From: Bemisia tabaci
Taxonomy: Eukaryota > Arthropoda > Insecta > Hemiptera > Aleyrodidae
NCBI RefSeq assembly: GCF_918797505.1
Contig: NC_092796.1
Location: 1-64,000, forward strand
Direction of reading: 5' to 3'
Length of the DNA stretch: 64,000 nucleotides
Shown piece after piece: positions 6,305-36,054 of this stretch (positions are counted from its first letter, which is position 1; each line of letters begins with the position of its first letter). The notes under the pieces were generated by a model. The model was not told where the DNA came from and searched no databases. It was given only the letters and a program-made list of their open reading frames with translations. A program made the position numbers and the translations under genes.

Positions 6305-7094
6305 TTGAGTAGTAGAAGAAGTAAATGTTCAATCTTTGGCGAATTTGTTACTAGCCTCCATGTGCAACCAAAACAAATCAAAGTTATTATTATGATTATT
6401 ATACTTTATTTCTAGTGAGCCCTAGTGTTAAAATGAAACAGTAACTGAATCGGCGTATGCGAAAACGTCCGATGTCCAATACAGTGTTTCAGAATTTGAG
6501 TCGATGTTTTTGTCGTAACTTAAAGATACAAGATGGCTTAAGACGTAAGGAATGTAGAACAATTCTATATAAATATAATCCCCCAGGTATAATTAAACGT
6601 TTACAAAAGAGATCGATCTTATTCATCAGTGTTGTGAGGCAAGAGAAATCACTGCAATAATTATGAAAATCTGTGTTGGACAACGGACGTTTTTACATGA
6701 GTCGATTCAATTAAAGGGTGACAGGAAAATCGACACTGTAGGAAACCTAATACATAATAATACAAAAATTTAAGAAGGAGTTGCGATTGATTCTATCTAA
6801 TCTGAGGTGGTTCGGAGTGGGCAGAATGAACGAGACGTAAAAACCTAAGACAAGACACAGTAGGATGTTTTTTTAAAAATTTCACTTACTTAATCAGCTG
6901 AAAACAATGATGTTAAATAAGGGACTAATTAGAAATAAAACATATAAAAGAAAGTCTTGGGAACTGGAGGACTCATTTGTAATGTTAAAGTTTCTGTTAA
7001 CATCGCATTAATGCAAAAACCTAGAGCAGAAATTGAGTCTTGTTAAGACATTTCGTTTTTAAACATCAAAGCACTGTCTGAATGAAATTGTTAA
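6305..7094. other. intergenic, nothing recognised
   Basis: AT-rich sequence with a TTATTATTATGATTATTATA stretch near 6384. No gene or element supported. Confidence 0.5.
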
Positions 7095-7536
7095 GGTGTT
7101 TCGTCAAGCTCAAAAGGAGTGGTCGAACTGGCATGCGATATATCGCATCTTTTAGGTCAAAACTCTCGGCAGATTTTGAATTTTCAGCAAAAAAAAGGAC
7201 AATAGCCCCTGCGCATGAGCCGAAAGAATCATTCTAAACCCAAAAATCGGCAAAATTCAGAGAATTGAAAGCAGAATAGTGTTTGGAAAAAAACCTCGCA
7301 TTCAATACAGAAATCGATAGCTGAATCGAATGCGAGGTTTTTTTCCAAACACTGTCCTGCTTTCATTTTTCTTAATTTTGCCGATTTTTGGGTTTAGAAT
7401 GATTCTTTAGGCTCATGCGCACGGGCTATCGTCCTTTTTTTTGCTGAAAATTCAAAATCTGCCGAGATTTTGTACCTAAAAGATGCGATATATCGCATGC
7501 AAGTTTGACCACGTCACTTGAGCTTGATGTATCACC
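7095..7536. repeat. Harbinger-like palindromic MITE D, copy 1
   Basis: A 442-bp near-complete palindrome from GGTG to CACC. The arms contain CATGCGATATATCGCA near each end and AACCTCGCATTC at the centre. It is flanked by TTAA on both sides. It has exactly the same length as the copy at 15330-15771. A TAA/TTAA target with GG-starting ends suits the PIF/Harbinger group, but no transposase is present. It lies about 0.5 kb beyond the 3' end of the DDE gene. Confidence 0.85.
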
Positions 7537-8027
7537 TTAAAGGAGGTCCAAAAACTACACGAATACATACACACGATGTATACACACATACAACTACACG
7601 ATAATATGTAAATACTGGGACAGCCTTCATTCAGAGGCACGGCAAATATTAGAACAACACTAACATGGTAGCGGATTATGCTGAATGGAGAATTTGCACA
7701 CAAAAATAGTACTGCTTCATCTGAGAGTACCCAATGAGCTGAGCTCACAGTATTTTTCAAAATTTTTTTCTGACATGGGAAATTGGAGAAAAATATATTT
7801 AAAAGTGAGAAAATGTGCCGCCTTGTGACGTAATCTGGCAGCATTTCCCATTTAGACACATGTATTTTCCCAGAATAGGTTATTTTGTCATATTTTCTCC
7901 AATAATTGTTAAATTTAGAAACCAAGGATATCCTCGTTCTCAGTTTTCCTAGCAGTATTATTTTAAAGATGAAATTCACAAAATTTAAAACACCTGCAAA
8001 GTCTCCATTTCTCACAATAATGTAAAA
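7537..8027. other. intergenic or 3' region of the DDE gene
   Basis: AT-rich and downstream of the minus-strand stop codon at 8028-8030. It could hold the 3' untranslated region. A 179-codon ORF across here overlaps the end of MITE D and shows no motif. Confidence 0.4.
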
Positions 8028-8757
8028 TCAATTAAAACTTTGCACAAGGGAAAGGAAACCGTTGAGACCATCACTGCCATCATCTAGCAGAGGATTGGGA
8101 ACAATGGTTTGAGCTAATTGTTGGAAATTGACATCATTAGCAATATCATCATCATCATCATCGTCATCATCAGATTGTTCAGAGCCGTTCGGTAAATCAA
8201 TATCCTCATCCTCCCTGTCAACTAAAGATACCACTGCCCGATTACCTGTTAAATACAGAGCATTCGGGGTCATGTTATTTTCAGTTGATAGAGGGTGATG
8301 ATTCCATTGTTGGAGAAACTGGTCCAAACTTCTCTGGATGCGAGGTTTGAAGATGTACGCTAGGGCTAGCATATGTACTTCATTACCAACATTTAAAATT
8401 CCTTGCAAACACAGGTTGGAAAAAAAATTCTTGAATCGAAGGGAGACTTTATTGACCTCACCCCAGAATCGCTCAATGCGTTGATTATGCACCGAACGCC
8501 CTGTGATGAAGCAATGGGAATCTACTCCTCTACTCTGTAACATGAAAGTAGCAACTTTCACGTTTTCTAAGCCTTTATCACTCCGCACAACTTTGGGAAA
8601 ACCATAACCTTGGACAGCTTCCTTAAAGAACTGAAGGACCGTGGTAGACTTTTTATTTGTGGCACACTTGATATAGATTGCCTTCCGACTGTAGGCATCA
8701 ACGCAGCCATGTATATAAAAGCTATACATGTTGAGTTTTTCATTTCCATCCATACTC
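8028..8757 (-). CDS. DDE gene, last exon (integrase core and acidic tail)
   Basis: The acceptor TTTTTCAG lies at 8758-8765 and the exon begins with G that completes the TGG codon split from the previous exon (LW|SMDGNEK). It encodes 242 residues to a TAA at 8028. It holds all three candidate catalytic acids and, near the end, an Asp run encoded by a GAT/GAC repeat around 8140-8170. A longer ORF upstream to 8906 is intron read-through. Confidence 0.82.
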
Positions 8758-11498
8758 CTGAAAAAGAAGAAGGAGAAAAAAAAATGTAAGAGGGCGGAAC
8801 TAAAAGGATTTAAGATTCTCAAAGAAGTACTATCTACCAAGAAATTCTTATAAGAACCATTCAAGAACAAGAAACTGAAAAAGAATGTATCAAAATAGAG
8901 GATCAAGTACTGATTATATCATTCAGGTATTTGAATTTGTATAAAGTCCTCCAAATGAAAAAAAGAAACACTAAGAAGTGGCCTGAACTGTACGTAACAA
9001 GGTGGAGAAGCCAGCACCGGCACCAGCCAAACCAGCATCATTTCTCCACCTTGTCCTCCACATGTTAGATTCAATCTAGTCTTATTTTTCATTCAGGATA
9101 TAAAAGTAGAGACTAAACTTGTCACCGTTTAAATCTATAGTCAAAAATCTTCAAAGCAGTCACCTTTTTGTATGACAGTGACATTCCAATGGAAAATCGT
9201 GAAGTACCTAATCAAGTTAAACATTGGAGACTTGAACCAGTCAGTAAGTAGTGGGAATTCAATGCACAACTACAAAACCTGTAAACCCATTTTTGGGGAG
9301 GAAAAAATTCTCATTTTTCAATAAATTCGAGCTCTTCATCTTAAAGCAATTGCAGACAATATTACCAACGACATTTTTGGAAAATTTTAGTGATTTTCCT
9401 TCTCTTCATAAGGTATATTCTGTGAAAACTCCAAGCCATGATGTTGCTTGGGAGCTTGGGTATCCTTTTAAAAAATAAAGGAGGTGCCCAGATTTTGCAA
9501 CAATGCAACCGAGATACTCATTTTTAGCCTCACAGCAGCCAATCTAAAAGATGTGTTTTCTGAAAAATTGATTCTTCAAAGATTTTTATTTGAATTGACC
9601 ATGGTTATTTTTACTATTATAGAGAATATTGCTGACAGAGTTACAATAAAAGACATACTCACTGTTGTCTGGATTGTCTGTGAAAAATGTCAGTTGAAAG
9701 GAGCTTAGGAAAAACTGCAGTGGAAACAAGGCTTTTCTCCTCAAATGTACCTACTTAAGAATTAAGAGTAAACCTTACCAAAGGTGATTTGGACCTGGAA
9801 CGTAAAACTTTTTCCGTTTCGTTTTTAGTCTTTGACGGAAAACGGTTCCAACAGGATCCACAGCACGGAGGGTTTCTCGAATTTTTTGGCGAGGTGCAGT
9901 CTTTCCTATGGCTGTAAGATGGCCTTTGACGTATCTTGCCCCACATTTTCGATTCTCTTCCTTTAGATCCACGACAGTCTGGAGCAACTCCTCATCATCT
10001 ATTTCTTCACTACGATAAGTTTGAGTACTGTAATTCCTGTAGAAAGTTTGGCGACTAATTCCCAACACCGCACAAGTTGCCGTGATAGACAAACCTACAT
10101 AAAGGAGAGACAAACAGATAACTGATTTTTGTGTTATTGAGAAATTCTAGTATCCAGTATCATAACCGGGAGGAGAAATGAGAAAGATATTTCACGTAAA
10201 GAGTGTTCATGACATTGGTAAAAAGGCTTTCTTCGATTCTGAAAGAAGAGAAAGTGATTTTTTCCCTCCATCAAAACATGTGTAATCACATTGTCTTGTG
10301 TTGACGTCATTTCAGATGTCTAAAAGGGATGTCTATTTGACACGGGCTTCGTGTACTTTTCTGAGCTTTGTGGTCTACTTTTTTTAAAAATGTGTGCAAA
10401 AAAAAGTCCCTGTCGGAGGTGTATCTCACCTTTAACTCCAAAGATTGGAGGAGTCCATTTTTTACACAAAAAAGTGTTTTTTTTGGTTTTTTTTTTAAAA
10501 TGAAGTTTTATTAAAATACTTCCAACGGCATTTTTAAGTATCAGAAGTTATAAAATGAATTTCCTATTTTTTAATACGGAAGGACACTGAGACAAAGGGA
10601 GAAAAAAATTAATTATACAGCTTTGTTTTTATGGTCTACCTACTTATATGTAAGCTCACAAAAAGCTGAATCCCATCGTAAAGGGGAGTTTGCAGTAGGT
10701 TCCCAAGTTTTAGACATGGCTCAGGCCCAGGTACCTCAAATGAATAAGGTGGCAAGATGACTTCTATCTAACTCTTCATGGTCAGTTCACTTCCTGTAGG
10801 CTTTTTCTACCTGTCCGATCCTCTCGCCAAAGAGGCCAAAATATGTTCATTCTCGGTTTGCTCCATGGAAAATAAAGGAGCATTTGAAAGATATACAATA
10901 GCCCAGTTAAAAAGTTTTTTGGTCGGTGATTCTTTTGGTTTGCTCAAATTTGCTCTAATACAGTAAGCAGCACAAGTTTTAGCTGCTTAAAGATATGCAA
11001 ACACAAAGGCTGTGAAACAGAGACTGAATGTTATTGCAAGTCTTCTACGCTGAAAATCATTTTTCAATAAAGAGGATTATTCATATGTAAGGAAGCAATT
11101 TTGAACTTAGGAAACAATAATGAGATAACTTAACAAACCTGATTTAGCGCAGTTATCCATAAATTCTTGGTCAACTTCCAAGGATGGCCTCCCACCCGCT
11201 GACATGTTCTTTTTCACATAACATGAAGCAGTTGCTTCTTGTACCTCTTCAGGATGATGGTAGTTTATATGGTCATTTATGAAGTTATCAACAAATGATG
11301 CAAGTCTTGAGAGCTGATGTTTCATCTCATCTGGAGCATGTTGTATTAGGTGTTGAAGCTGATCAGCTATTGTATGAAACTTGCTCATGGAATGGCTCAA
11401 CAAAATATTATCTCCATTACTAGCGTGGTTATGTCCCTTTCTTAATTCTTCCAGGGCACCTTCTACAAACTCTTCTATTTCTTGAAGAACTGATTCAC
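8028..11498 (-). CDS. spliced DDE integrase-core protein with helix-turn-helix (gene span)
   Basis: Three exons on the minus strand (11498-11139, 10094-9779, 8757-8028) join with matching phases at GT..AG introns of about 1.0 kb. They give roughly 467 residues plus a missing N-terminus. Order: a helical, acidic N-terminal part with a GRPSLEVDQEF linker; a helix-turn-helix-like segment (GLSITATCAVLGISRQTFYR); a region ending RAVDP and GPNHLW; then an RNase H-fold integrase core. The candidate catalytic residues are Asp in CVDAYSR, Asp in VRSDKG (39 residues between) and Glu in HNQRIERFW (34 between). All three are present. The tail carries nine Asp in a row. The layout matches the integrase-core proteins seen in fish and aquatic invertebrates (from memory). 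No flanking LTR or terminal repeats were found. It may be a transposon-derived host gene or a resident transposase; DNA cleavage activity is inferred. Confidence 0.8.
9779..10094 (-). CDS. DDE gene, middle exon (helix-turn-helix)
   Basis: 316 bp with acceptor ATGTAG and donor GTAAGG on the minus strand. It begins GLSITATCAVLGISRQ, which reads as a recognition-helix unit of the resolvase/transposase kind. It continues with an acidic stretch, then KCGARYVKGHLTAIG and RETLRAVDP, and ends GPNHLW. Both boundaries keep frame with the neighbouring exons. Confidence 0.8.
11139..11498 (-). CDS. DDE gene, upstream exon (helical N-terminal region)
   Basis: 360 bp, acceptor ATTTAAG and donor GTTTGT. It starts with two bases of a split codon (xGT) and stays open throughout. 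The encoded segment is predicted helical and charged (VLQEIEEFVEGALEELRK at the start), includes NFINDHINYHHPEE, and ends with GRPSLEVDQEFMDNCAKSG. An earlier exon must supply the start codon. Confidence 0.72.
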
Positions 11499-15256: not shown

Positions 15257-15932
15257 GGAGGACAAGGCGCATAAATGCAGTTTTTGAAAAAATTAAGATA
15301 TTAATGATATTAAGTAAAACTAGTCTTAAGGTGATTCGTCAAGCTCAAGTGACGTGGTCGAACTGGCATGCGATATATCGCACCTTTTAGGTAAAAAATC
15401 TCGGCAGATTTTGAATTTTCAGCAAAAAAAAGGACGATAGCCCCTGCGCATGAGCCTGAAGAATCATTCTAAACCCAAAAATCGGCAAAATTCAGAGAAA
15501 TGAAAACAGGATAGTGTTTGGAAAAAAACCTCGCATTCGATACCGAAATCGATAGCTGAATCGAATGCGAGGTTTTTTTCCAAACACTATCCTGTTTTCA
15601 TTTCTCTGAATTTTGCCGATTTTTGGGTTTAGAATGATTCTTCAGGCTCATGCGCAGGGGCTATCGTCCTTTTTTTTGCTGAAAATTCAAAATCTGCCGA
15701 GATTTTTTACCTAAAAGGTGCGATATATCGCATGCCAGTTCGACCACGTCACTTGAGCTTGACGAATCACCTAATGCATATTCTGTGGAAAATTCGTTCC
15801 AAATTTCCAATTTTAAAGCATCAAAGAGTCAGTTTGAGCTTACTCTCCGCCATGGATCCATGTAATTTCGAAACTTTAAACACGCATTTCTCGGAATAGC
15901 AAAAACTGCACTTATGTGCCCCTCAAATGTCC
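15257..15932. repeat. MITE family A, copy 2, interrupted by MITE D
   Basis: Begins GGAGGACAAGGCGCATAAATG and aligns with the reverse complement of 540-776. The alignment is split by the 442-bp element at 15330-15771. Sequence resumes precisely on the far side (TGCATATTCTGTGG). The uninterrupted copy therefore serves as an empty site. Confidence 0.8.
15330..15771. repeat. Harbinger-like palindromic MITE D, copy 2
   Basis: A 442-bp palindrome identical in length and very close in sequence to 7095-7536. TAA stands on both sides (15327-15329 and 15772-15774), and the related empty site at family A copy 1 has one such triplet-like position (CTGAATGCAT). This supports a 3-bp TAA duplication. Confidence 0.88.
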
Positions 15933-19844: not shown

Positions 19845-21078
19845 GAGCTTGTTCAGTAATTCGTAATTCTTGCATTTTTGGAAACTAGAGAGTGCACATA
19901 GTTCACAGGAATTTTCCCCCATTTTTTTGAGCAATATTAACCCACGAAATACGAGTCCAAAAGTCTGTATTTTGGGCTCCCATTTAAATGCGCGCCGCTT
20001 GGGCCATCTCAAAATGGCGCCCATTCTATCCGTCCGGCGGTGGCCACACTTCTGACGTAGCGTGCCAGCGAGGTACCCCTGCGTGCCTCTGCTGCGTGTG
20101 CGTTGTATAAACAAACGAAGATTGATGACACGAAGGATCCAAACAACTCAAAATCTCTTAATTTTAATTAATTTAAATCCATTTTTGACTTCAACCAAGC
20201 ATTTAGCAATAATATTCATCGTAATTTACAACCTGAAGCCACGGCGTATCGGCTCATTTTAAGGTGCATTCTGAAAATCAGTTTTACAAGTCCAATGTCC
20301 AAACCCAGACTTTCTTCTTTTACTATTTTTTGACCATTCTCTTTTCATTTTCGCCTCAAATCAAATGTTTTGCAGTTTCTTTGTCTTAAGTATGTGGTCC
20401 TGAATTCATTCAAGAGTTAGAGGTTCACCATTTATTTAGTATTATAGCCTTTTGACCTCTCAAGCTTCACCAATATGATCTCATGTAGTTTGAAGTTTCT
20501 TTGGCCGAAACCAAGTGATTACACATCTGATGTGTGTCTTATGGCTCCTCAAATTCGCAGTTTAGAACTAAATCAGAGACTGCAGTTACTTAATCCAGTT
20601 CTGCTCTCTTGTTCAATGTTTGTCATAAGTGTTTGTTTGTGTCTGTTCTTTGTAAGTGACCACTGTAGTGCATACACACAGTTATGCTATCGGTACAAGT
20701 ATTATTTCTTGTTTTTTACAGTCAGGACTTTCTCTTAAGCGCAATAATTTACCAAAGAAATTCACCTAGTTGCGTAAATAATTTGGTGTGTAGATATTCT
20801 GTTAATATCTCCTTGCGGTGATGCAAAGTTTCTGAGATCTGTCAAAAGTGGGTTTTGCATTTAGACGGTCTCTCTTGTATGACAAAATTACTGCTCTGGC
20901 AGCTTCAAATTTATACTTTGATCTCTGATTCATCACTTAATGACACTCGTGCGGTGTCATTTATCTTTAATCAGTTAAAAGCTATTTCGACAATGAATCA
21001 TCAAAGGTCCGATTTAAGAAGGAATTTTCTGGTGTGTGCTGCGGCTGAACCGACATCACAACTCTCGAAAGCGTCAAC
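19845..21078 (+). repeat. P0 left arm
   Basis: Pairs in reverse orientation with 27690-27858, 29490-30197 and 35518-35874. It is the undisturbed arm and therefore gives the empty sites for P3 (CAAATTTATAC near 20906) and for the Helitron (AAGCATTTAGC near 20200). Confidence 0.88.
20868..21078 (+). other. exon-like coding remnant inside P0 arm
   Basis: The stretch reads as protein-like sequence without stops (SSLNDTRAVSFIFNQLKA, then STMNHQRSDLRRNFLVCAAA and EPTSQLSKAS). In the right arm (minus strand, 27858-27690) the same reading continues into FENLSGSGNG and ends at a GTAAGTGG donor-like site near 27654. I do not recognise the family. It may be a captured gene fragment. Confidence 0.35.
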
Positions 21079-21123
21079 CAAGACATGACCATTCGTCTGG
21101 AAGTGGAAATATTTTCCAACTCA

Positions 21124-21250
21124 TCAGCAGGCCAATTATTGAAGGCTTAGAGCAACCCGACAAGACATCAAATTCAGATATATTACGTGGATAAGATAGG
21201 GTTATGTCTTATCATGTCGGGCTGACATAGTTTCAATAATTGGGTCGCTG
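21124..21250. repeat. short inverted-repeat element
   Basis: Ends CAGCAGGCCAATTATTGAA and TTCAATAATTGGGTCGCTG, with inner arms around CCCGACAAGACAT and ATCATGTCGGG. Related to the nested element at 1209-1751. It lies in the P0 loop. Confidence 0.6.
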
Positions 21251-21873
21251 GTAGATTAACAGGTAAGATTTGTAAAGTCACTTAGGTATCACAAGTTACA
21301 TTCGCATCTGTTGCGGAACAGTTTTTGTAAGTATGCTTACCTTTGTGGAGATTAATTGATAACAAAGCGAGCATATCAATGTCATAGCCTAACTAGAGAA
21401 CCTCTTACGTTGATTTACAAGGTTTCAGACTTTCTGTTTCTCTTCGATTATTAAATCATGCAACGAAATGTTACAAATGTCATCCCCAGATAACCTTAAC
21501 CATGTTCCTGACTTATTCTTATGGGAGGATGTAATTCCATGTCTTTTCAAAATCCTTCCATCTGTCTGTACCTGAGAAATTCAATGAACCAGCCGACTTT
21601 GGGACTTTTAATAAGAATCGTCAGCAACTTTACCAGTGAAATTATCATTAGGTGTTTTTGAACAAAGGGATTTTATTAAAATTTTTGTTGGACAGGTTTG
21701 ACTCACCCTGAATACTTAAAAAGAGAGAACAAAAATATTTTCTTCACTCTAGAAAGACATGAAACTGACCAAGCCGTAGGTAGGTAAGTAGTTTTGATCA
21801 CTTCATTCCATGAAATATAATGAGCCTTGTTGCTGCAGGAAACACAGCATACTAGCAGGAATCCTCAAATAAA

Positions 21874-24800
21874 GGAGTGGGTGCAAAATCGTCAAAAATT
21901 CCCCCCTCATGGATGTTGACCAATTTTCAGCATGTCATTCCTCACTATGGGATACGCCTTTTCCCAAAATTTCAAGGCCTGAAATGAATTTCTTTCCGCG
22001 TGGCAGCGTTGCCAAGTTGAAAACCGTCGAGTTCCATATCTTTTGAACGAAAAGAGATATTGAGGTGCGGTTTGCGTTAAAATTCTCCAAAAATTGCGTT
22101 CTTTTGAAATATGTACTCAGTTTGATCGTTTAGGTGATTTCAGATTGCAATGATGCTATTTTTCACACTTTCTTAAGGGTAAAGTTTTTTTCAACCCTAG
22201 TATATCGTCAAACGCCGGATTCTCGATTCGAAAAAAGAAATGTTCATTGTATTATTCGTACTTTTCCATTTCTTTTGATATATTATAGCTCCCAGGGAAA
22301 CGATTGGTAAGGGAGATATGAGCAATTTAAGTTTACGCTTCGCGCGCGCCGACTGGAATCCGGGCGCCGCTCGCCGCTCTGAGTCGTCTGTACACTCCCT
22401 TCCTTGAGCTTCAAGAGGTCATTCCTATGTATTTTTTTGCGTACTTTCCATTTCTGGCCTTTGAAAAGGGCTCCGATAAATTTTTAGGGGCCTTGCGGAT
22501 CATTGTTGCCATTTTTGGCTCGTATTTCGGGGTTCTTCCCTATTTTACTCACAATTCTACTGAAAAACTTAATTTAAACGGAAAACTGTGTGCTTAGATC
22601 AGGGAAAGAACGTTAATAAAAAATAAAATTTCATGTATAAATTTCTCCTTCGTTGCCAAATTTTCGCGAAAAATCGTACCAAAGAGCCAAATATTTGAAA
22701 AATTGGATAAATCCCCACGCCATGGTTTATGAAAGTGGGGCATGGCTTTCATATTGACGTACTTACGTAACAGATCTTACCTATTTATACAACATATTAA
22801 AAGAGCATAGTTGTATTTGGATTCCCACGATCTGAAAATTGTCCGGGATGTCACCTTTAGCGGCCTTTTCTTATGTGTAAGGTAGATCTTTTGAATGTTT
22901 TTCGACCTTTAGTCGTCCTCCATAGGAGTGTATCGTTTGTATTTTTGCTGTAATTTTCATTTTTGGCAGTATAAATTGCTTGTGATGAACTTTAAGGGAC
23001 CTTACGATCCATTTTTGCCATTTCGGCCAATTTTTTAGGGTTTTTTTTTTCAATTTTACACGCGTCAGACCTTATTCAACCTGTAACCGTGTACAACCTA
23101 CACTCAGATTTTTGGAAATAACGTAATAAAGTACATCATTGTAACGTTCTTTGTAACTTTTTCTTACGAGACCATACGTCATAGAACGTAGAAGGTTTTA
23201 GGTAATGAATAATGACTTTCATGCAGAATTGAAGAGCTTTCCGGAAAAAGGGCACATGCCGAAAAAACGCGTTCTGAGAAAAACGCATTTGAAGTTTTCA
23301 CTCTTACATGACGTACGTCGGAACTGGGGCACTCATATCAACTTTCATACACCCTAGAATGAATAACGACCACTGGTAAAACTGACACTTCTTTCAGTGT
23401 TGTGGGAAGAATTTTTTAAAATTTTCCGTTATGTGCCCTTTTCCCGGTAATGGACCGGTGGTCATAGGTTTTGGCTTTTGAAGCTGAATTTTCGAGACTT
23501 TAAATAGTTTCTAAACAAGAGTAAATAATTCCGATTGATTAATAAATAATAATTTCAATCGAGAACGCGCGGGTGGATCATCTTCGATCATTATTGATGA
23601 AAAAGACTGCGAAACACGCGAAAAAATCGAAAAATTCAATCTCACACTGAGACCATTAAAAATAAAATCAATAATAATTACAAAAAATCACGTGTGACTG
23701 GTGCAACGCGTAGACAATCCCTACAATCCCTGCAACCCGATGCTATTGCATTGATTAGCAGAATCAGCGCGATGCATCTGTAGTGAGGGATCCTTATCAG
23801 TATCCATCACCTCCCTGCCTGCCTGCGCGCTATCTCCTCAACGTCGCGGCGACCGTACCCAGAAGCAAATAGATGAAATACGTTTGTGACCCTTGACGTA
23901 TTGTTAGCCTTACAAAACGTGGTCTCGAAGCTCCAAAAATTGATAAATTAAGCTGAAACTCGGAACATTGGTTTATTCGGATGTGAGAAATCCATTTCAG
24001 AGACAATTTTCGGATCGTGGGAATCCAAATACAACTATGCTCTTTTAATATGTTGTATAAATAGGTAAGATCTGTTACGTAAGTACGTCAATATGAAAGC
24101 CATGCCCCACTTTCATAAACCATGGCGTGGGGATTTATCCAATTTTTCAAATATTTGGCTCTTTGGTACGATTTTTCGCGAAAATTTGGCAACGAAGGAG
24201 AAATTTATACATGAAATTTTATTTTTTATTAACGTTCTTTCCCTGATCTAAGCACACAGTTTTCCGTTTAAATTAAGTTTTTCAGTAGAATTGTAAGTAA
24301 AATAGGGAAGAACCCCGAAATACGAGCCAAAAATGGCAACAATGGTCCGCAAGGCCCCTAAAAATTTATCGGAGCCCTTTTCAAAGGCCAGAAATGGAAA
24401 GTACGCAAAAAAATACATAGGAATGACCTCTTGAAGCTCAAGGAAGGGAGTGTACAGACGACTCAGAGCGGCGAGCGGCGCCCGGATTCCAGTCGGCGCG
24501 CGCGAAGCGTAAACTTAAATTGCTCATATCTCCCTTACCAATCGTTTCCCTGGGAGCTATAATATATCAAAAGAAATGGAAAAGTACGAATAATACAATG
24601 AACATTTCTTTTTTCGAATCGAGAATCCGGCGTTTGACGATATACTAGGGTTGAAAAAAACTTTACCCTTAAGAAAGTGTGAAAAATAGCATCATTGCAA
24701 TCTGAAATCACCTAAACGATCAAACTGAGTACATATTTCAAAAGAACGCAATTTTTGGAGAATTTTAACGCAAACCGCACCTCAATATCTCTTTTCGTTC

Positions 24801-24971
24801 AAAAGATATGGAACTCGACGGTTTTCAACTTGGCAACGCTGCCACGCGGAAAGAAATTCATTTCAGGCCTTGAAATTTTGGGAAAAGGCGTATCCCATAG
24901 TGAGGAATGACATGCTGAAAATTGGTCAACATCCATGAGGGGGGAATTATTGTCGATTTTGCACCCACCCC
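21874..24971. mobile_element. P1: palindromic element, about 970-bp arms
   Basis: The left arm 21874-22843 and right arm 24002-24971 are near-perfect reverse complements of equal length, separated by a 1,158-bp loop. The ends are GGAGTGGGTGCAAAATCG and CGATTTTGCACCCACCCC, with AAA outside on the left and TTT on the right. Arm landmarks, in order: CCAAAATTTCAAGGCC, a TTTGAACGAAAAGAGATATT block, GAGGTGCGGTTTGCGTT, and TTACGCTTCGCGCGCGCC. The loop has no recognised gene. Confidence 0.88.
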
Positions 24972-25802
24972 TTTTCTATCTTGTACAATATCTGTTGATA
25001 CTTAAGTATTTGATGATATATCTATGAAGTACAAAAATTCTGAAAAGACACTGGGAATACCAGCAGAGTCATCTCAAAATTTTTGTCTCAGGAACAAAAC
25101 TAAAAGTTGTGGAAGTTTCCTAAGAATGCTCTCAAGAAAAAGAGCTTGATGCAAAAACGGCTTTTTTCGCCCCCCCTCTGGAAGTTCTTCATACTTTGTC
25201 TATTGATTACTCATACTTGAGTGCTTCTTTTCCCAAATTTTCAGACCCCCAACAAATTTTGGGGGGGAGCTAAGGGGGCGGAAGTCAAAACCTGTGAACC
25301 TCGATATCTCTTGAAGAAAGAAAGATATCGAGGTCCGGTTTGGACGAAAAATCGTCTAAAATTGCATACTTTAAGATTCTAAAGGTCGAAATCCCGATAT
25401 TACATTTTTAAGTCAACATATGTGCTTTTTCCAGTTTTTAGGTCTAGAAAATTTCTTTTAAACGAAAAATTTACAAAGATCTCAATTTTTTATTTGAACC
25501 AAAGCCAGTTTTTTTAAATTGTTCGTCTTTTTCCGCATCCAACGAGTGGTCCATTAAGCCGGAGAACCAAACGGTTCCGGAGTTATGATCGATTGAAGTT
25601 TCCGCTCAACGCGCGCCAACCGATTTTCGCGCGCAAAAAAGTCGGATTTGACTGTTATTAGATCAGATTGAATGTTCAAACTGAGCAAAATGCTTTATTA
25701 GGGACTCTTGAGGGTCGCTGAGTTCAGAAATTACAGATACTTCCAAATAATTTACGTTTTTAAATTACAGCTCCGCAGTGGTCCTGTCCGAAGCTGCAAT
25801 TT

Positions 25803-25842
25803 TAAAAAACCGGCGCTCCGCTTCGCTCCGCGCCGGTTTTTG
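25803..25842. repeat. GC hairpin with A/T flanks in P4 loop
   Basis: AAAAACCGGCGC and GCGCCGGTTTTT enclose a CTCCGCTTCGCTCC loop. It is followed by a G run. It looks like a strong stem-loop; in this eukaryotic setting its role is unknown. Confidence 0.6.
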
Positions 25843-26144
25843 GGGGGGGGCTTTGCCCCTCCAGGACGCGCGCGTTTTTTAGTTTGATTGTCCGACCTCA
25901 ATTGTTCTGTCTTTTAAGTGACTCGCGCGTCCACCGCGGGAAGAGTGTATTTTCCGAAGGGAGGGGCGGGGGCGGGAGCCATCAATCTTTGGAGGTTGGA
26001 CTTACGTTTACACTGTTGGAGGCATTGATTATTCGAATAAGGACTTCACGTCGCCAGATTGCAACAACAATCCTCATGTAATGTCTGATATGAAAAAATG
26101 TCAACAAACGCTGTGGCAAGCTTGAATGACGATGGATGAATCTC

Positions 26145-26352
26145 CATAACCCACTGTGCGACAACATTGCCGTCTTGTCCACTAATTCTCAGTCTGTAAC
26201 CCACTATGCGGCAATATAGCCATCATTTCATCAGTTCGTGACCCATTGTACGACAACATGCCGTCTTATCCACCACTTTTCAGTTCGTGACCCACTGTGC
26301 GACAACATTGCCGTCTTGTCCACCAATTTTCAGGTCGTGACCCACTCTGCGG
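26145..26352. repeat. about 50-bp tandem repeat in P4 loop
   Basis: Five units starting near 26148, 26198, 26240, 26288 and 26338, each containing CCCACTGTGCGACAACATTG or a close variant, then CCGTCTTGTCCAC and TTCAG. Unit spacing varies from about 42 to 50 bp. Confidence 0.7.
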
Positions 26353-27858
26353 CTTCCCTCCTTTTGCCGCACACCCCCGCTAAAACTTTCAAAGCTCGCC
26401 ATTTTCAACGGCTCGACCGATTTGGCTCAAATTTAATACAGCCCAGAACTAAGTAAGATCTTCCTTCTGTAAAAATTTCGGGGAGAAAACCTTTTAATTT
26501 GCGCGAGTTATCGCGCCCACAAAAGTGAACCTCCCCCCACTTCTCGCCCCCACCATTCGAAATGTAATACTTCGATCTCCATTTTTTTTTCGCAGAATGG
26601 TAGTCCTGTTCCTCTTCTTTACATCGCAAAAGTTTCACGCGGAAATTTTTTAAAATGAGGGAAATATAGCCAAGCAAAAATCGGAAAAACCACGATGAGT
26701 CGGAAATACATACATAAATAAACAGATATATAAATAAATATATTTATAAATATATATATAAACATGAATTCAAACGGCATTCATATTCGTAATCTACGAC
26801 CCATGATCGATGCTCATTACATGGTCTTTGGTCCAGATCTGACATCAGGGGAGAACGCAATAGTGTATTACCTTCGGAAAATACACAAAAACGTGAATTT
26901 TTTGGAAGTATCGGTATTTTCTGAACTCATCGACCCTCAAGAGTCCCTAATAAAGCATGTTGCTCAGTTTGAACATTCAATCTGATCTAATAACAGTCAA
27001 ATCCGACTTTTTTGCGCGCGAAAATCGGTCGGCGCGCGTTGAGCGGAAACTTCAATCGATCATAACTCCGGAACCGTTTGGTTCCCCAGCTTAATGGACC
27101 ACTCGTTGGATGCGGAAAAAGACGAACAATTTAAAAAAACTGGTTTTGGTTCAAATAAAAAATTGAGATCTTTGTAAATTTTTCGTTTAAAAGAAATTTT
27201 CTAGACCTAAAAACTGGAAAAAAGCACATATGTTCACTTAAAAATGTGATATCGGGATTTCAACCTTTAGAATCTTAAAGAATGCAATTTTAGACGATTT
27301 TTTCGTCCAAACCGGACCTCGATATCTTTCTTTGCTCAAGAGATATCGAGGTTCACAGGTTTTGACTTCAACCCCCCCCCCCCCCCCCCCCCCAAAAGTT
27401 TTTGGGAGTCTGAAAATTTGGGAAAAGAAGCGCTCAAGTATGAGTAATCAATAGACCAAGTATGAAGAACTTCCAGAGGGGGGGCGAAAAAAAGCCGTTT
27501 TTGCATCAAGCTCTTTATGTATTATTAATGGATGAAGTGTAGCCTGCTACATATCATGTCGTATTCCTCTTCAAATATGCATGCAGGTGAGTAGATTTTG
27601 AAATTTTAAGCGTACTATTTGCTTATGAAAGAAGCAAGCACTAACATGATTTCCACTTACCATTACCACTTCCTGATAAATTTTCAAAAGTTGATGCTTT
27701 CGAGAGTTGTGATGTCGGTTCAGCCGCAGCACACACCAGAAAATTCCTTCTTAAATCGGACCTTTGATGATTCATTGTCGAAATAGCTTTGAACTGATTA
27801 AAGATAAATGACACCGCACGAGTGTCATTAAGTGATGAATCAGAGATCAAAGTATAAA

Positions 27859-29489
27859 GAGGTTGTTCCAAAAACGCCGATTTTGGCCCCCCTTGGATTT
27901 GGCCCAAACTTTGCTCAGATGTTGTACTAAGTGTCCCCGATGCTTCGGCAAAATTTCAGCCCCCTCGGATAATTAGGGGGAGGGGGCAGGGGGGCAAAGT
28001 TGCAATTTTTTTAAAACTTTAAAAATCGATATCTCGCGAACGGTTTGAGTGTAAGTGTTGCGGTTTGCGCTAAAAAACGTTAAAAAATATTCTCTACAAA
28101 AATATTAATGCTGTTTGCACGGTTGCGTAATTTATCGCGGTCATAAATCGATTTTTTCGATTTTGACGTTTCGACTTTTTTTTAGTTTTTCGCCTCTCCT
28201 CTCTTTGGAATCGTTGCTACGTGAATGAAAACCTGTTGAGGTGATTCTCCATGAAATTCTGCATCTACTTCACTTTGTTTGACCTTGGGGAAACGATTCG
28301 TTCGTGAGTTACAGCGATTTTTCTGCGCGTTACCGGTTACGCGCGGGCGGCATATCGGCGGCGCTCCATCCCGCGCGGGCAAGGCAGAGGTTGTTTCACC
28401 GCTATAGAGCCTCATATTCATGCTGTAGGCTGTAATTATCGATATTTTCTCCTCCCACACCCTTCCCCTCCAATAAATAATTTTTTTATACTTCGTTATA
28501 CAGGGTATGCCAGACCACCCGTAACAGGTCTTTTTCTCGGTTGGTTTAGGTAGTACGAAGTGGGGGACTGCGGGGTTGAACAGGAATTGACCCCAAGGAA
28601 TCAGAATTTCACGGCCCCGAAACCCCCCTAGCCACCCTCGGGGGGTAAAAGGGGGAGGCACAATGTCTCCCGACTTTTGGGATCGTGAACCCATCTTTAC
28701 CTCCCAAGGGGGCATGGGGGTTTTCGAGGCCGTGAAATTCTGATTCCTTGGGGTCAATTCCCTGTTCAACCCCGCAGTCCCCCACTTCGTACTACCTAAA
28801 CCAACCGAGAAAAAGACCTGTTACGGGTGGTCTGGCATACCCTGTATAACGAAGTATAAAAAAATTATTTATTGGAGGAGAAGGGTGTGGGAGGAGAAAA
28901 TATCGATAATTACAGCCTACAGCATGAATATGAGGCTCTATAGCGGTGAAACAACCTCTGCCTTGCCCGCGCGGGATGGAGCGCCGCCGATATGCCGCCC
29001 GCGCGTAACCGGTAACGCGCAGAAAAATCGCTGTAACTCACGAACGAATCGTTTCCCCAAGGTCAAACAAAGTGAAGTAGATGCAGAATTTCATGGAGAA
29101 TCACCTCAACAGGTTTTCATTCACGTAGCAACAATTCCAAAGAGAGGAGAGGCGAAAAACTAAAAAAAAGTCGAAACGTCAAAATCGAAAAAATCGATTT
29201 ATGACCGCGATAAATTACGCAACCGTGCAAACAGCATTAATATTTTTGTAGAGAATATTTTTTAACGTTTTTTAGCGCAAACCGCAACACTTACACTCAA
29301 ACCGTTCGCGAGATATCGATTTTTAAAGTTTTAAAAAAATTGCAACTTTGCCCCCCTGCCCCCTCCCCCCTAATTATCCGAGGGGGCTGAAATTTTGCCG
29401 AAGCATCGGGGACACTTAGTACAACATCTGAGCAAAGTTTGAGCCAAATCCAGGGGGGGGGCCAAAATCGGCGTTTTTGGAACAACCTC
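27859..29489. mobile_element. P3: palindromic element inserted in P0 right arm
   Basis: 1,631 bp with arms near 780 bp around a short centre at about 28640-28700. The ends are GAGGTTGTTCCAAAAACGCC and its reverse complement. The flanks are ATAAA and TTTGAAG; the P0 left arm shows the empty site as AAATTT, so no bases were duplicated. ORFs at 28182-28769 and 28885-29163 are mirror copies of one sequence and not evidence of a gene. Arm landmarks: CAAAATTTCAGCCCCCTCGG, CGATATCTCGCGAACGG, GTTGCGGTTTGCGCT. Confidence 0.9.
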
Positions 29490-30389
29490 TTTGAAGCTGC
29501 CAGAGCAGTAATTTTGTCATACAAGAGAGACCGTCTAAATGCAAAATCCACTTTTGACAGATCTCAGAAACTTTGCATCACCGCAAGGAGATATTAACAG
29601 AATATCTACACACCAAATTATTTACGCAACTAGGTGAATTTCTTTGGTAAATTATTGCGCTTAAGAGAAAGTCCTGACTGTAAAAAACAAGAAATAATAC
29701 TTGTACCGATAGCATAACTGTGTGTATGCACTACAGTGGTCACTTACAAAGAACAGACACAAACAAACACTTATGACAAACATTGAACAAGAGAGCAGAA
29801 CTGGATTAAGTAACTGCAGTCTCTGATTTAGTTCTAAACTGCGAATTTGAGGAGCCATAAGACACACATCAGATGTGTAATCACTTGGTTTCGGCCAAAG
29901 AAACTTCAAACTACATGAGATCATATTGGTGAAGCTTGAGAGGTCAAAAGGCTATAATACTAAATAAATGGTGAACCTCTAACTCTTGAATGAATTCAGG
30001 ACCACATACTTAAGACAAAGAAACTGCAAAACATTTGATTTGAGGCGAAAATGAAAAGAGAATGGTCAAAAAATAGTAAAAGAAGAAAGTCTGGGTTTGG
30101 ACATTGGACTTGTAAAACTGATTTTCAGAATGCACCTTAAAATGAGCCGATAGGCCGTGGCTTCAGGTTGTAAATTACGATGAATATTATTACCAAACTA
30201 GCTGCTCCGGGCGCCCTCCACAGCTAGCAATGGTGGTGCAGTAGCTTATTTGGAATCGGAGCAATTAGTTGAATCTATTTAATAATGATGATGATTCTGC
30301 GGCAGAAGATCAAGAAATTTAACTGCCTCTCTGCATTACAGGGTGGAGACTGCCATTCTACCGAAAAATGTTATAAAAAGCTCGCATTA

Positions 30390-33300
30390 TTAGTTTTTCT
30401 TTTTTTGTGTGTTATTTTTTAATTTTTTTTTATTCTTATTTTTTGATAATTTTCTAATGACTATGAGGCTTTTGGGATTTATAAAAGATCGAAGCACCTC
30501 TTTGTGCACGATGTTTTTTGTACGGTTGCCTTTGGGAAGAATTTGGACTTCAAAATTTTTGTACGATGTAGCTCGTGAGAGTGCAACGTACATGTTGACC
30601 ATGGCCAAAAACTGTTTGGGGTAAATAAATGCCGACTCGCTTCAGTGTTTGACCCTTAGCTTTGATGATGGTCATGCAGAACACAATGCGAATTGGAAAT
30701 TGTCGCCTCTTAAAAGTGAAAGGGAGAGAGGAGTCTGCAGGTGACAAATCAATTCTTGGCAGTGAAATTCTTTCACCGGCCTTCTCGCCGGAAATGACCT
30801 GCAAATCAAGACAATTTTCATAACGTTTCCAGACGATCAATCGGGTACCATTCGATAAACCTTTAGAAACGTTGAGGTTTCTTAAAAGCATGACAAAAAC
30901 CCCCTCCAAAAGTGTGAGTTTAAGCGGTGGTAAGCCACTAAGATTAAGACTGTCCAAGAATTCGAGGGGAAAATTGAGAGCCTCTCCCTCTTCCTCTACA
31001 ATGAGCCTGTTAACACTGAAGTACGTTTTAGAGACACCTAAAAGAACTTCAACAACCTTGTCGTTAATTTCATTGCAATGCTTATTTTTAGGGGCCAGAA
31101 TTGCGCAGTTTGTGAAATCTACGTTCGAGCATGAGGAAGCTACCTTTTCCATAAAGGAGGGGTGGCGATTTGGGCCATTTCCGGCCCCACCTAATCCGGG
31201 ACTTTTTTTGCTGTGATTCGTTACGTATAAGTGTCAAGAGAAAGCATGCCAAGTTTCAGGCCGATCGGCCCAATATTCGGGGGGCAGGGGCCCCCGAATT
31301 TTTAAGCGCAAAATCGGTTTTAATTTTGTAGCGCCGTCAATTTCGCTCGTATACAGATGAAAATTGGGTGTCAGGGGTAAAATTTTGCGTTCTTTCCATT
31401 TCCGCCGTCACAATTGACACTGGGGCAAAATTAAGGGGGATTTTGGGGGGTTTTTCGCGTTTTTTCGCGTTTTTTACCAATTTTCTGCGGTTTTCATGCT
31501 TTAAGTCAGAGATTTTGAGCCAAACGACCACAGATTTGATTTCTACGCAAAAAATTACATAGGAACATAATGACCAACTAACACTCAACAGCGGATTTCT
31601 CTAGGAAAAACTGACCCATAAGTATGTGTTCACTCAGAAATTTTGAAAATAGCCATGTTTCGGGTACAGCCCAAGCTTGTAGCACTACCATATTCACATA
31701 TGATACGCTCTAGGTCGACCCTGTTGATATTATCGGGAACTTGAAATGCTACCCGCTTGGGCGGAGGGTCGAATTCTCCTCAGAAACGAATAAAAAAGGC
31801 GATAAAATTACGTTTCACGTGAATTGTTGCGAGCGGAATGTTATTATATCGGCAACTTTCACCTCCAACTTATGTAATTTTTTGCGTGCTTTCCATTTCT
31901 GCCATGAAAATTGGCATCAAAGCAATTTTAAACGGGTTTTTGGGGTTTTTTATCATTTTTTAATCATTTTTTTCCGGTCTTTTGCGGTTTTCATGTTTGA
32001 AACCTCACCAAATGAGCCAAACGACCACAAATTTTAATTTTCCTCAAAATACGTTTACTATCACATCCATAAAATACGTCACGGATGAATCGTATAGCAG
32101 AAGAAATGTTGTGTAAAATCCTTATCTCTCATTCTGAATCCTCGTCAGACCATAAGTAAGCAGCATCCTCTAGGCAGTCTCCATAAGAGGATGACAATCT
32201 TCGGGGCTCTTTTTCTTGATGTCGGTAAAAACCAAGAAACCACAGAACTGATATGCCACATGAGGTTTCAAACACGAAAACCGCAAAAGACCGGAAAAAA
32301 ACTGGTAAAAAATGATTAAAAAATGATAAAAAACCCCAAAAACCCCAAAAACCCGTTTAAAATTGCTTTGATGCCAATTTTCATGGCAGAAATGGAAAGC
32401 ACGCAAAAAATTACATAAGTTGGAGGTGAAAGTTGCCGATATAATAACATTCCGCTCGCAACAATTCACGTGAAACGTAATTTTATCGCCTTTTTTATTC
32501 GTTTCTGAGGAGAATTCGACCCTCCGCCTAAGCGGGTAGCATTTCAAGTTCTCGATAATATCAACAGGGTCGACCTAGAGCGTATCATATGTGAATATGG
32601 TAGTGCTACAAGCTTGGGCTGTACCCGAAACATGGCTATTTTCAAAATTTCTGAGTGAACACATACTTATGGGTCAGTTTTTCCTAGAGAAATCCGCTGT
32701 TGAGTGTTAGTTGGTCATTATGTTCCTATGTAATTTTTTGCGTAGAAATCAAATCTGTGGTCGTTTGGCTCAAAATCTCTGACTTAAAGCATGAAAACCG
32801 CAGAAAATTGGTAAAAAACGCGAAAAAACGCGAAAAAAAACCCCCCAAAATCCCCTTAATTTTGCCCAGTGTCAATTTTGACGGCGGAAATGGAAAGAAC
32901 GCAAAATTTTACCCCTGACACCCAATTTTCATCTGTATACGAGCGAAATTGACGGCGCTACAAAATTAATACCGATTTTGCGCTTAAAAATTCGGGGGGC
33001 CCCTACCCCCCGAATATTGGGCCGATCGGCCTGAAACTTGGCATGCTTTCTCTTGACACTTATACGTAACGAATCACAGCAAAAAAAGTCCCGGATTAGG
33101 TGGGGCCGGAAATGGCCCAAATCGCCACCCCTCCTTTCAGTAATAATATCAGTTTCAGTAATACTGCTTGTCGGTCAATCAATGAATTCCGGCATGGCCT
33201 TTTTTAGCAGAAAGGTAAACACCATCACCTATTTCGAGTTAAAATTTTGCAAACTCCGCTTCGTCTTGCAAAGTTCTCATATTTTGAGTAAGTTTTCTGA

Positions 33301-33990
33301 TTTTGAAAAGAGGTCAAAGTGGTGAGAATTTGATTGCGTTTTGCACCAATGTTTGGCGAGAAGCATGCGGAACAACGGGTAAAACCTGTCTAAAATCACC
33401 ACCCTAGACGACAATTTTTCCTCGAAAAGGGATATCATTACCCATTCTCTAAGAAGTCGGTCGATGCATGCCAGAGCATGCGTGATAACCATGAGAGCTT
33501 CACCCCAAAAAATGATCGTTGTTTTCCGAATAGTCTCAGCCTCTCTTGAGCTAACCGTCAGACTTGACACAGAATTCTCATTCAGAACCGAAGGAATTTT
33601 GAATTTGCCATGAACCGGCCGACCGTTAGGGAGCAACGATGCGGCGATACCTGTCCAAGCAACGGAGATGACGTCTAAGTTTTCCTTTGTACAATACGCA
33701 GTAAGACATTCTTAAACGAAAGTTTTTCCCGATCCTCCTGGACCATCAATGAAAATCGCATTACACGTGTAAGATGGATTTTGGATGAGACTAATTATTT
33801 CAGAAATAATTTGATGTTGCTCTGGGTTAGCAGCAGAAATCATGGAATCATAGTTTTAGGGGGAGGAGAATCAGGCTCCGACCCTTGAAGATTCTGGTTA
33901 ATTGGAAGCAATTCCGGAAGATCAAATGATGATATTGAAAATCCATGAAGTCTTAATGTGCTTTCAATAGCAAAAAGCCGATCAACGCAG
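30390..33990 (-). pseudogene. Helitron helicase, decayed and split by P2
   Basis: Minus-strand segments in order: RLFAIESTLRLHGFSISSF (about 33990); Walker A in FIDGPGGSGKTF (near 33740) followed directly by a stop; TGIAASLLPNGRPVHGKF; IIFWGEALM where the usual motif has Asp; a frame change into LTQNMRTLQDEAEF with a stop before IGDG; then P2 (31156-33134); then CAILAPKNKHCNEIN, SGLPPLKL, NGTRLIVWKRY, KRRQFPIRIVFCMTI and KAKGQTLKRVGIYLP. A final frame change leads to MYVALSRATSYKNFEV. These are conserved motifs of the Pif1-like Helitron helicase. Several stops, frameshifts and the P2 insertion make it non-functional. Confidence 0.88.
31156..33134. mobile_element. P2: palindromic element inserted in the Helitron helicase
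   Basis: 1,979 bp; arms of roughly 855-880 bp around a loop at about 32010-32257. The ends are GGAGGGGTGGCGATTTGGG and its reverse complement, with AAA and TTT outside. Removing it leaves AAATTT and rejoins the helicase reading (GAAATTTATGG), again without a duplication. The arms contain CAAGTTTCAGGCCGATCGG and a GGGGGGCAGGGGCCCCC block. Near-identical 90-codon ORFs in the two arms (31741-32037; 32170-32547) are mirror images, with small indels showing slight arm divergence. Confidence 0.88.
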
Positions 33991-34079
33991 TCGACCGACC
34001 AACAAAATAAAGAGAGAGGAAGAAACGAAGTATCAAGCAAATTTGAAACAAAGTTGGAAAGAGAAAAGAACAAATAAGA

Positions 34080-34910
34080 ATGAAATGGGGGGAAACATTT
34101 TCAAAATATTTCGAAAACATTTCACGGAACACTTCGAAATTGAAAGTTTCTGAGAACGTGTTGGAGATGTGTTGAAAACATTTTTCTAAAACTTCAGCGA
34201 CACTGGTTCGATTTATATTCAAAACGTTTTGAAATGAATTGAGGATGCTGATCGGAAAGAGAATTAAAACGTTTTGAAAATGAGTTGGAGATATACCACA
34301 CCAATCAGTAATATTTATTAATAATTGAAAACATATCTAAAATGTGTCAGATAGGTTCCAGGAAGGTGTCGTTGAGCCGTGCAGGAAAAGTATCTGACAG
34401 TACTTTGAAAAGTTGCTTGAAACAATCTGTAGATTAATTTGAAACATTTTCAGAATATTTCCAAAACATTTCACCAAACACTTCGAAATTAGAAGTATCT
34501 GAGAACATGTTGGAGATGTGTTGAAAACGTTTTTAAAAAGTGATAGTAGAACAATTTGAAAACATTTTGAACACATTTTAAAAACATTGTTTCACGTTTC
34601 TGCAAGATGAAATGAAAATATTTTTAAACTGTGTTCAAAACATGTTGTCTCTGATGAAATATTTTACATGACTCGCAACTTTGTCTTCAAAATGTTTTTA
34701 AAACATTTCATTTCCCCTCCAAATTTTTCTTTTGTAAAATGTTTAGGATTGGTTTTCAAAACATTTCTGTTGTGTTAAATGTATCCAATTTGAAAACATT
34801 TTCAAAATGTTTTGGATATGTTTCAATGAAATTTTCAAAGTATTTGCGTCCTTGAAACATTTCTGAAATGTTTTTAATATGTTTCATCGAGATGAATCAG
34901 TTTCGACACA
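34080..34910. repeat. field of degenerate AAAACATTTYNAAATGTTTT repeats
   Basis: AT-rich sequence in the Helitron where words such as GAAAACATTTT, CAAAACGTTTTGAAAA and AAAATGTTTT recur dozens of times in both orientations. ORFs here are by-products of the repeat. Confidence 0.6.
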
Positions 34911-35029
34911 AGTGGAATGTTTCTAAAACCTTACCGATCCGAGCTGTGCTACCAGGGCGGACTTTAGTCTGAATAAATGGGAGAAAATTTGAGCCCAGCT
35001 AAACTTCACTCGTCGATAAAAGTAAGACA

Positions 35030-35517
35030 ATTTGAGAAAATCGAAAAAACGATCACAGCCTGCAAATCTACAGATCACAGGCTTTAATTTAAAACAAAAA
35101 TTATGCAAATAGGTCCGGTGGTTCTCTCAAAGTTAACGTCCACACATTCGGACCTCCGTTTTAATGCATCGAAGAAAATTTGAGAAAATTATGGTGAAAA
35201 ATTTGAGAAAATCGAAAAAACGATCACAGCCTGCAAATCTACAGATCACAGGCTTTAATTTAAAACAAAAATTATGCAAATAGGTCCGGTGGTTCTCTCA
35301 AAGTTAACGTCCACACATTCGGACCTCCGTTTTAATGCATCGAAGAAAATTTGAGAAAATTATGGTGAAAAATTTGAGAAAATCGAAAAAACGATCACAG
35401 CCTGCAAATCTACAGCTCAGGGGCTTTCATTTAAAAAAAAGATCAGGCAAATCGGTCCGGTGGTTCTCTCAAATTTAATGCCCCAAGATTCGGAACGTTG
35501 CATTTTAATATATAGGA
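35030..35517. repeat. 171-bp tandem repeat at Helitron 5' end
   Basis: CGATCACAGCCTGCAAATCT recurs at 35050, 35221 and 35392, a period of 171 bp. The first two units are almost identical and the third diverges near the Helitron terminus. Terminal repeats of this kind are common in Helitrons. Confidence 0.8.
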
Positions 35518-36054
35518 TGCTTGGTTGAAGTCAAAAATGGATTTAAATTAATTAAAATTAAGAGATTTCGAGTTGTTTGGATCCTTCGTGTTATCAATCT
35601 TCGTTTGTTTATACGACGCACACGCAGCAGAGGCACGCAGGGGTACCTCGCTGGCACGCTACGTCAGAAATGTGGCCACCGCCGGACGGATAGAATGGGC
35701 GCCATTTTGAGATGGCCCAAGCGGCGCGCGTTTAAATGGGAGCCCAAAATACAGACTTTTGGACTCGTATTTCGTGTGTTAATATTGCTCAAAAAAATCG
35801 GGGAAAATTCCTGTGAACTATGTGCACTCTCTAGTTTCCAAAAATGCAAGAATTACGAATTACTGAACAAGCTCATTCTTTTCATCTTCTCATGTTCTCA
35901 ACGCGCCCAGGACTGGGGGAAGAAAAGAAAAGACGTATATCACATTTAATTAGACTGAATTAAATTATGTAATTACTGACTCTTCCATACGAGTAAATTT
36001 CATGGATGAGCTCAGTTGTTTGTTAATTCATATTTTGTACTATAAACTGAGAAA

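Follow-up and report, generated by a model that had tools for sequence, protein, structure and literature searches.

Spy, for which Han et al. 2014 is said to be the original paper, and ISL2EU are the described transposons closest to the elements considered here, namely five giant palindromes (P0 to P4) nested in the initial 64 kb of contig C4 in the 610-Mb assembly of the whitefly Bemisia tabaci, a stretch that we call the window. In the parts of PMC4482050 that deal with them, Spy elements are described as inserting into AAATTT without duplication, and ISL2EU elements as inserting at A/AT/T (slashes mark points of joining throughout) with duplication of AT, with terminal inverted repeats (TIRs) of 6-259 bp, DDE and YqaJ proteins, and first bases that are usually, even if not strictly, GG. 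According to excerpts of PMC11304231, Spy transposases have approximately 700 amino acids (aa) encoded in one frame, cgSpy (Colletes gigas) and cvSpy (Crassostrea virginica) are active, the TIRs of five elements measure 467, 167, 27, 26, and 15 bp, and cgSpy produced 8810 integrations in human cells, about 60% of them at AAWTT, with no duplication.

In this work, we propose that P1 to P4 are non-autonomous, foldback-like Spy elements of the PHIS superfamily of cut-and-paste transposons, and that P0 is a non-autonomous PHIS-type element following the rule of ISL2EU, the sister group of Spy, an account that we regard as highly probable when taken as a whole. By every feature testable here, P1 to P4 are to be classed as non-autonomous Spy elements, since they and their relatives combine the AAATTT target, the lack of duplication, a single-frame DDE transposase of about 700 aa, and inverted ends. 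They depart from the described Spy elements in that many of the Bemisia copies are palindromes devoid of a gene. P0, for its part, resembles ISL2EU in the probable duplication of AT within A/AT/T and in the presence of DDE and YqaJ gene pairs in the same genome, one of them with an AAT flank at the end that is seen; it differs in starting with GAG instead of GG and in having arms of approximately 1.24 kb, compared with the TIRs of 6-259 bp given in the same parts of PMC4482050. The arms of the Bemisia palindromes are thus unusually long for the known Spy and ISL2EU kinds.

Very long inverted arms, as in P0 to P4, also occur in foldback-type elements such as Tetris and Galileo, which produce duplications of several bp. 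Galileo is assigned to the P superfamily in the portion of the literature consulted, and the Bemisia palindromes differ from the foldback-type elements in target and enzyme. A literature search found no report of Spy, PHIS, or ISL2EU elements in Bemisia or whitefly, which is not proof of their absence in print.

Insertion into AAATTT without duplication

The target of the P1 to P4 type was defined from 37 independent AAA-type insertions, comprising the four of the window, 13 copies of P3, five of P2, and 15 transposase-bearing elements; one further copy (L051) was left out of the count because the nest in which it sits is a segmental copy of that of the window. The flanks read AAA/TTT in 35 cases, AAA/TTA in one, and CAA/TTT in another (L038, with a damaged end), and a target duplication of 1-11 bp was found in 0/37. 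All five of the other P2 copies fetched lie at AAA/TTT, as do 14 of the 15 transposase-bearing elements with both ends resolved. These 15 were drawn from 21 loci (L030-L050), from which L030, L039, L041, L043, L046, and L050 were dropped as not having both ends resolved; three of those (L039, L046, and L050) show a single visible end each, in all cases adjoining AAA.

Unoccupied sites tell how much sequence an insertion added. When the flanks of P3 are joined and compared with the left P0 arm, 298 of 300 positions across the junction are identical, without a gap, and the empty site is an exact AAATTT, as the first-pass annotation of this window had stated. Comparison of 48 joined sites with the window and the fetched loci yielded a paralog across the junction for nine, one of which (L051) repeats the P3 insertion. 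For the remaining eight (window P2, L093, L101, L107, L032, L035, L036, and L044), the paralogs are approximately 68-94% identical, and the alignments cross the junction without gain or loss of a base, except in one of the two L101 paralogs, which has a 3-base gap located 2 bases from the junction. Empty sites are therefore available for nine insertions, P3 included.

The TWA duplication of the PIF/Harbinger rule was also looked for, and no 3-bp duplication was found among the P-type and transposase-bearing insertions examined. In a control around L001-L030, the same search returned only two identical 3-bp flanks, both of them runs of A or T; because these loci were too short, this control does not demonstrate the TWA rule for Harbinger elements of the genome.

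Transposases between ends of the same kind

A search of the genome with PF13359 gave 103 places, and a 681-residue frame occurs at 16 places among the matches listed, most of them with equal score. Inverted ends of approximately 640-1060 bp enclose the transposase sequence in each of the 15 resolved elements, a length that sets these elements apart from the Spy elements of the excerpted PMC11304231, whose TIRs span 15-467 bp. Beside AAA, these ends start with GAGGTCTGTGC, GAGGTTGTTCC, GAGGGTTATGC, GGACCCTATGC, GGAGGGGTATCG, or GGAGGGGTGGCG. The stop-to-stop frames have 668-720 residues in 12 of the 15 elements, and are shorter in L047 (530) and L032 (498); L049 has no frame of 400. Both DDE_Tnp_4 (PF13359) and DDE_Tnp_1 (PF01609) were recognized by Pfam in all seven transposases tested. 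In an alignment of 22 sequences, numbered after L034, D363 and E411 are fully conserved, and D281 is conserved in at least 90%; these three residues presumably constitute the DDE triad.

In a tree of these proteins, ten Bemisia rows labelled Spy-type and 36 homologues fall on one side of a branch with 100/99 support, with the other PF13359 rows on the opposite side, and within the genome the Spy-type rows are separate from the DDE+YqaJ rows and the other PF13359 rows. A sequence search of the PDB gave five matches, the best with an E-value of 0.094, none of which is a transposase, and a search with a made-up motif gave 0 matches.

The clearest link between a palindrome of the window and a transposase-bearing element is that of P4 with L049, in which DDE pieces are present: their ends and both arms are 90-96% identical. 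The centre of P4 retains a remnant matching the L032 protein in tblastn (46 aligned residues, 39% identity). Because of this arm match and this remnant, P4 looks like a deletion derivative, that is, a cut-down relative, of an L049-like element. P4 is also the only place within the window with Spy-type transposase matches. No transposase-sized frame was seen in the five palindromes, whose frames were not themselves searched for domains, and the longest stop-to-stop frame in them has 212 residues and spans the palindrome of P3. A relative with a transposase is thus close in the case of P4, and known by similar ends only in the case of P1 to P3.

The target of P0 and the ISL2EU-type genes

All 16 independent P0 insertions examined (the window copy plus nine, two, and four others) are flanked by AAT/ATT, and six more copies with a single visible end are consistent with this in every case. 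Such flanks could be read either as a 6-bp target without duplication, or as a 4-bp AATT target in which AT has been duplicated. The one clean site that distinguishes between them is L138. Its filled form is GACTCAAT[P0]ATTCAGC, and a direct repeat next to it, with 89% identity over 165 bases, has GACTCAATTATGC; gaps are avoided only when AT is counted once (score of 256 vs 250), which makes the empty site AATT. Judging mainly from this one site, P0 very likely duplicates AT within A/AT/T, following the rule of ISL2EU.

The gene pair reported for ISL2EU is also found in this genome. YqaJ domains occur at 33 places among the matches listed, 11 of which (L001-L007, L009-L011, and L015) have a listed DDE_Tnp_4 match no farther than approximately 4 kb away, and are counted here as gene pairs, in elements that may be incomplete. 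L010 and L011, two near-identical DDE+YqaJ copies, share the single end that is seen, AAT/GGAGAATTTGCACC; this element starts GGAGAATTTGC, with a GG start and with the same AAT flank as P0. In the tree, L001, L002, L007, and L009 group with L013 (91/81), and five other PF13359 rows form another group. None of the loci compared was found to combine P0 ends with DDE and YqaJ genes, for which reason P0 is taken as a candidate member of ISL2EU. Elsewhere, the region C3:54064286-54082025 contains nine YqaJ domain pieces with a regular spacing of 2,177 bp.

Linking P0 to the transposase gene of L043 did not succeed, given that the palindrome of that locus has other ends and that the gene lies outside it. 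This palindrome (L129 plus L043, C2:39366300-39375500) has arms of 1231 bp with 99.7% identity and ends TGACGTCACACTTTAGGTG. Its inner arm and its loop are 68-76% identical to those of P0, a similarity that does not reach the outermost 263 bp, and a DDE_Tnp_4 frame of 550 aa lies just outside this palindrome. Approximately residues 414-480 of the L043 protein are matched by an array of short transposase-frame repeats at C9:34097784-34101287, mostly spaced at 206 bp.

Copies elsewhere in the genome

The genome-wide end searches covered the P0, P2, and P3 types, with 643, 1317, and 431 first-look candidates, respectively, of which 40 of each were scored. The listed P3-type matches are distributed over contigs C1-C10 and C28, and those of P2 and P0 over eight and nine, respectively, of contigs C1-C10, a recurrence that rules out chance as the origin of these ends. 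P3, with its approximately 1.63 kb and both arms, is present at 14 other places among the matches listed, 13 of them with unrelated flanks, and in these 14 copies the identities of the paired arms to the query differ by no more than 1 point. Wherever flanks were fetched, their type matches that of the P3, P2, or P0 counterpart of the window. A near-identical second P0 nest, whose outer flanks are those of the window nest, is located at C1:85561551-85578425, and would be either a segmental duplication shared with the start of C4 or an assembly duplicate. Because it is a segmental copy, it was excluded from the independent insertions. From the match positions, the stretch from the start of P2 to the start of P3 is approximately 860 bp longer in it.

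Proposed mechanism and alternative explanations

In the mechanism proposed here, a DDE transposase provided by relatives in the genome would bind the long inverted ends of P1 to P4 and excise the element, which would then be joined to the middle of an AAATTT target through a presumably flush (0-bp) cut. Since a flush cut leaves no gap to fill, no target duplication would result. In the case of P0, the cut at A/AT/T would have a 2-bp stagger, duplicating AT, and the enzyme responsible would probably be of PHIS type. We infer that the transposases of such relatives moved the copies of P1 to P4. The palindromes without duplication would thereby be accounted for by a known, little-studied transposon group, and a rich, apparently recent Spy-type population would be added for the genome of an insect pest. 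In a single stack that contains both target rules, of 0 bp and of 2 bp, the order of insertion and its geometry become directly readable.

Another possibility is that all five palindromes belong to one Spy-type group without duplication, in which P0 just prefers AATATT; the first-pass annotation had likewise described one family of five without duplication. The resemblance between the ends of P0 (GAGCTTGTTC) and those of P3 (GAGGTTGTTCC) speaks in its favour, and so does L127, where direct joining outscores the counting of AT once by 2 in the window paralog and in 12 of the 14 paralogs fetched, and falls short of it by 2 in the remaining two of the 14, a result made ambiguous by an indel adjacent to the junction. 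Nevertheless, AATATT is read at the L127 site in none of the 14 paralogs fetched, L138 aligns without gaps only if AT is not counted twice, two comparisons at L148, both weak, favour the same reading (74 vs 68, and 66 vs 64), and a Bemisia element with the ISL2EU gene pair has the AAT flank of P0. We therefore consider the single group improbable, and distinguish two or more groups that differ in their target rule. The claim that none of the five leaves a duplication consequently stands for P1 to P4 and very likely fails for P0; consistent flanking duplications, the pattern that the annotation had named as contrary to it, apply to the P0 copies that were looked at but to none of those of the P1 to P4 type.

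The annotation had further taken a central, symmetric target without duplication as pointing to another mechanism, and had speculated on a tyrosine recombinase or on rolling-circle integration. The target is real for P1 to P4, yet this rule had already been published for Spy, as the excerpts of PMC4482050 and PMC11304231 describe. Mobilization by a recombinase or a Helitron-like enzyme would agree with the lack of duplication at P1 to P4 and with the presence of a Helitron-like element within the same nest. This element, though, has TC and CTAG termini and its own A/T site, as opposed to the long inverted ends and the AAATTT of the palindromes, and the longer relatives whose existence the annotation had foreseen carry a DDE transposase of PHIS type instead of a recombinase, no search having been aimed at recombinase genes. 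Such a step is unnecessary, and we give this explanation a very small chance. An equally slight chance is granted to an assembly artefact with arms folded through misassembly: near-perfect inverted arms can mislead assemblers, and the whole nest is present twice (on C4 and C1), but P3 recurs with both arms among mostly unrelated flanks, P0 and P2 recur likewise, and the insertion sites are precise.

Several points weigh against the Spy and ISL2EU account that we prefer. The names of the groups are based on the target rule, gene content, and anatomy, with reference Spy and ISL2EU transposases absent from the comparison. In half of the ten Spy-labelled tree rows (L030, L039, L041, L043, and L046), fewer than two ends are resolved; long branches, of which the tree program issued a warning, also make the deep order uncertain. 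No transposase-bearing element with the exact ends of P0, P1, P2, or P3 was found, the overlap with P3 ends being limited to the first 11 bp in L042 and L048. P0 starts with GAG (GAGCTTG) and not with the usual GG of ISL2EU. Most empty-site paralogs are diverged, and several have one to three mismatches to the AAATTT hexamer; in view of this, and of the gap in L101, the empty site of P3 itself is the strongest single case.

A more tentative extension, which we think possible and rather doubtful, is that the palindromes represent two sister lineages of PHIS with nearly the same terminal motif, GAG[C/G]TTGTTC, and the same giant palindromic form, one making a flush insertion at AAATTT and the other a 2-bp staggered one at AATT. 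If true, the Spy and ISL2EU-type elements of the whitefly would constitute a natural experiment on how the stagger of a DDE transposase changes, and the long arms would be kept near-identical within copies by homogenisation.

Structure of the nest

The five palindromes, with the ends and positions first reported (Table 1), were recovered with sharp ends and arms approximately 95-99% identical, four of them bordered by AAA/TTT and P0 by AAT/ATT. The arms of P0 (19845-21078 against 35874-35517, 30197-29490, and 27858-27690) have pieces of 98.0-99.4% identity, and its loop amounts to approximately 1.14 kb after subtracting the nested inserts. The arms of P1 extend over 970 bp (99.4%), those of P2 over 627 bp (94.6%), and those of P4 over 876 bp (96.3%); the self-comparison of P3 covers the whole element (96.5%).

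Table 1. Features of the palindrome nest, in positions of the window.
Feature	Position	Strand	Ends	Flanks or site	Remarks
P0	19845..35874	.	GAGCTTGTTCAG	AAT/ATT	Outermost palindrome
P1	21874..24971	.	GGAGTGGGTGC / GGGGTGGGTGC	AAA/TTT	Palindrome in P0 loop; Spy-rule element
P2	25142..27513	.	GAGCTTGATGCAAAAACGGC	AAA/TTT	Palindrome in P0 loop; Spy-rule element
P3	27859..29489	.	GAGGTTGTTCC	AAA/TTT	Palindrome of 1631 bp in right P0 arm
P4	31156..33134	.	GGAGGGGTGGCG	AAA/TTT	Palindrome within helicase sequence of Helitron-like insert
Unoccupied P3 site	20907..20912	-		AAATTT	Left P0 arm
Helitron-like insert	30198..35517	-	TC start, CTAG end	Between A and T	Right P0 arm; PIF1-type helicase pieces
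Spy-type transposase remnant	32132..32251	-			P4 centre; tblastn, E about 1e-4

The 5.3-kb insert in the right P0 arm, which we take to be Helitron-like from its TC and CTAG termini, leaves flanks that match the empty left arm at 192 of 197 positions without a gap. Near its 5' end, it contains tandem copies of 171 bp (35029-35541). PIF1-type domains flank P4 on both sides, so the palindrome interrupting helicase sequence is P4 and not P2, as had been claimed, and no helicase was found around P2. The idea that excision restores the helicase is not confirmed either: the frame on the upstream side of P4 closes at approximately 33,279, short of the edge of the palindrome, so that removing P4 alone would not be expected to give a single open frame.

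The positions within the nest imply that P0 was inserted first and P4, lying inside the Helitron-like insert, last. P1 and P2 in the loop, and P3 and the Helitron-like element in the right arm, would have arrived in between, in any order.

Other features of the window

Outside the nest, a compact hairpin element without spacer is present in two copies (7091-7540 and 15326-15772), with arms of 225 and 222 bp, respectively. Between them, an open frame on the minus strand (8028-8918) resembles, by eye only, an integrase core domain.

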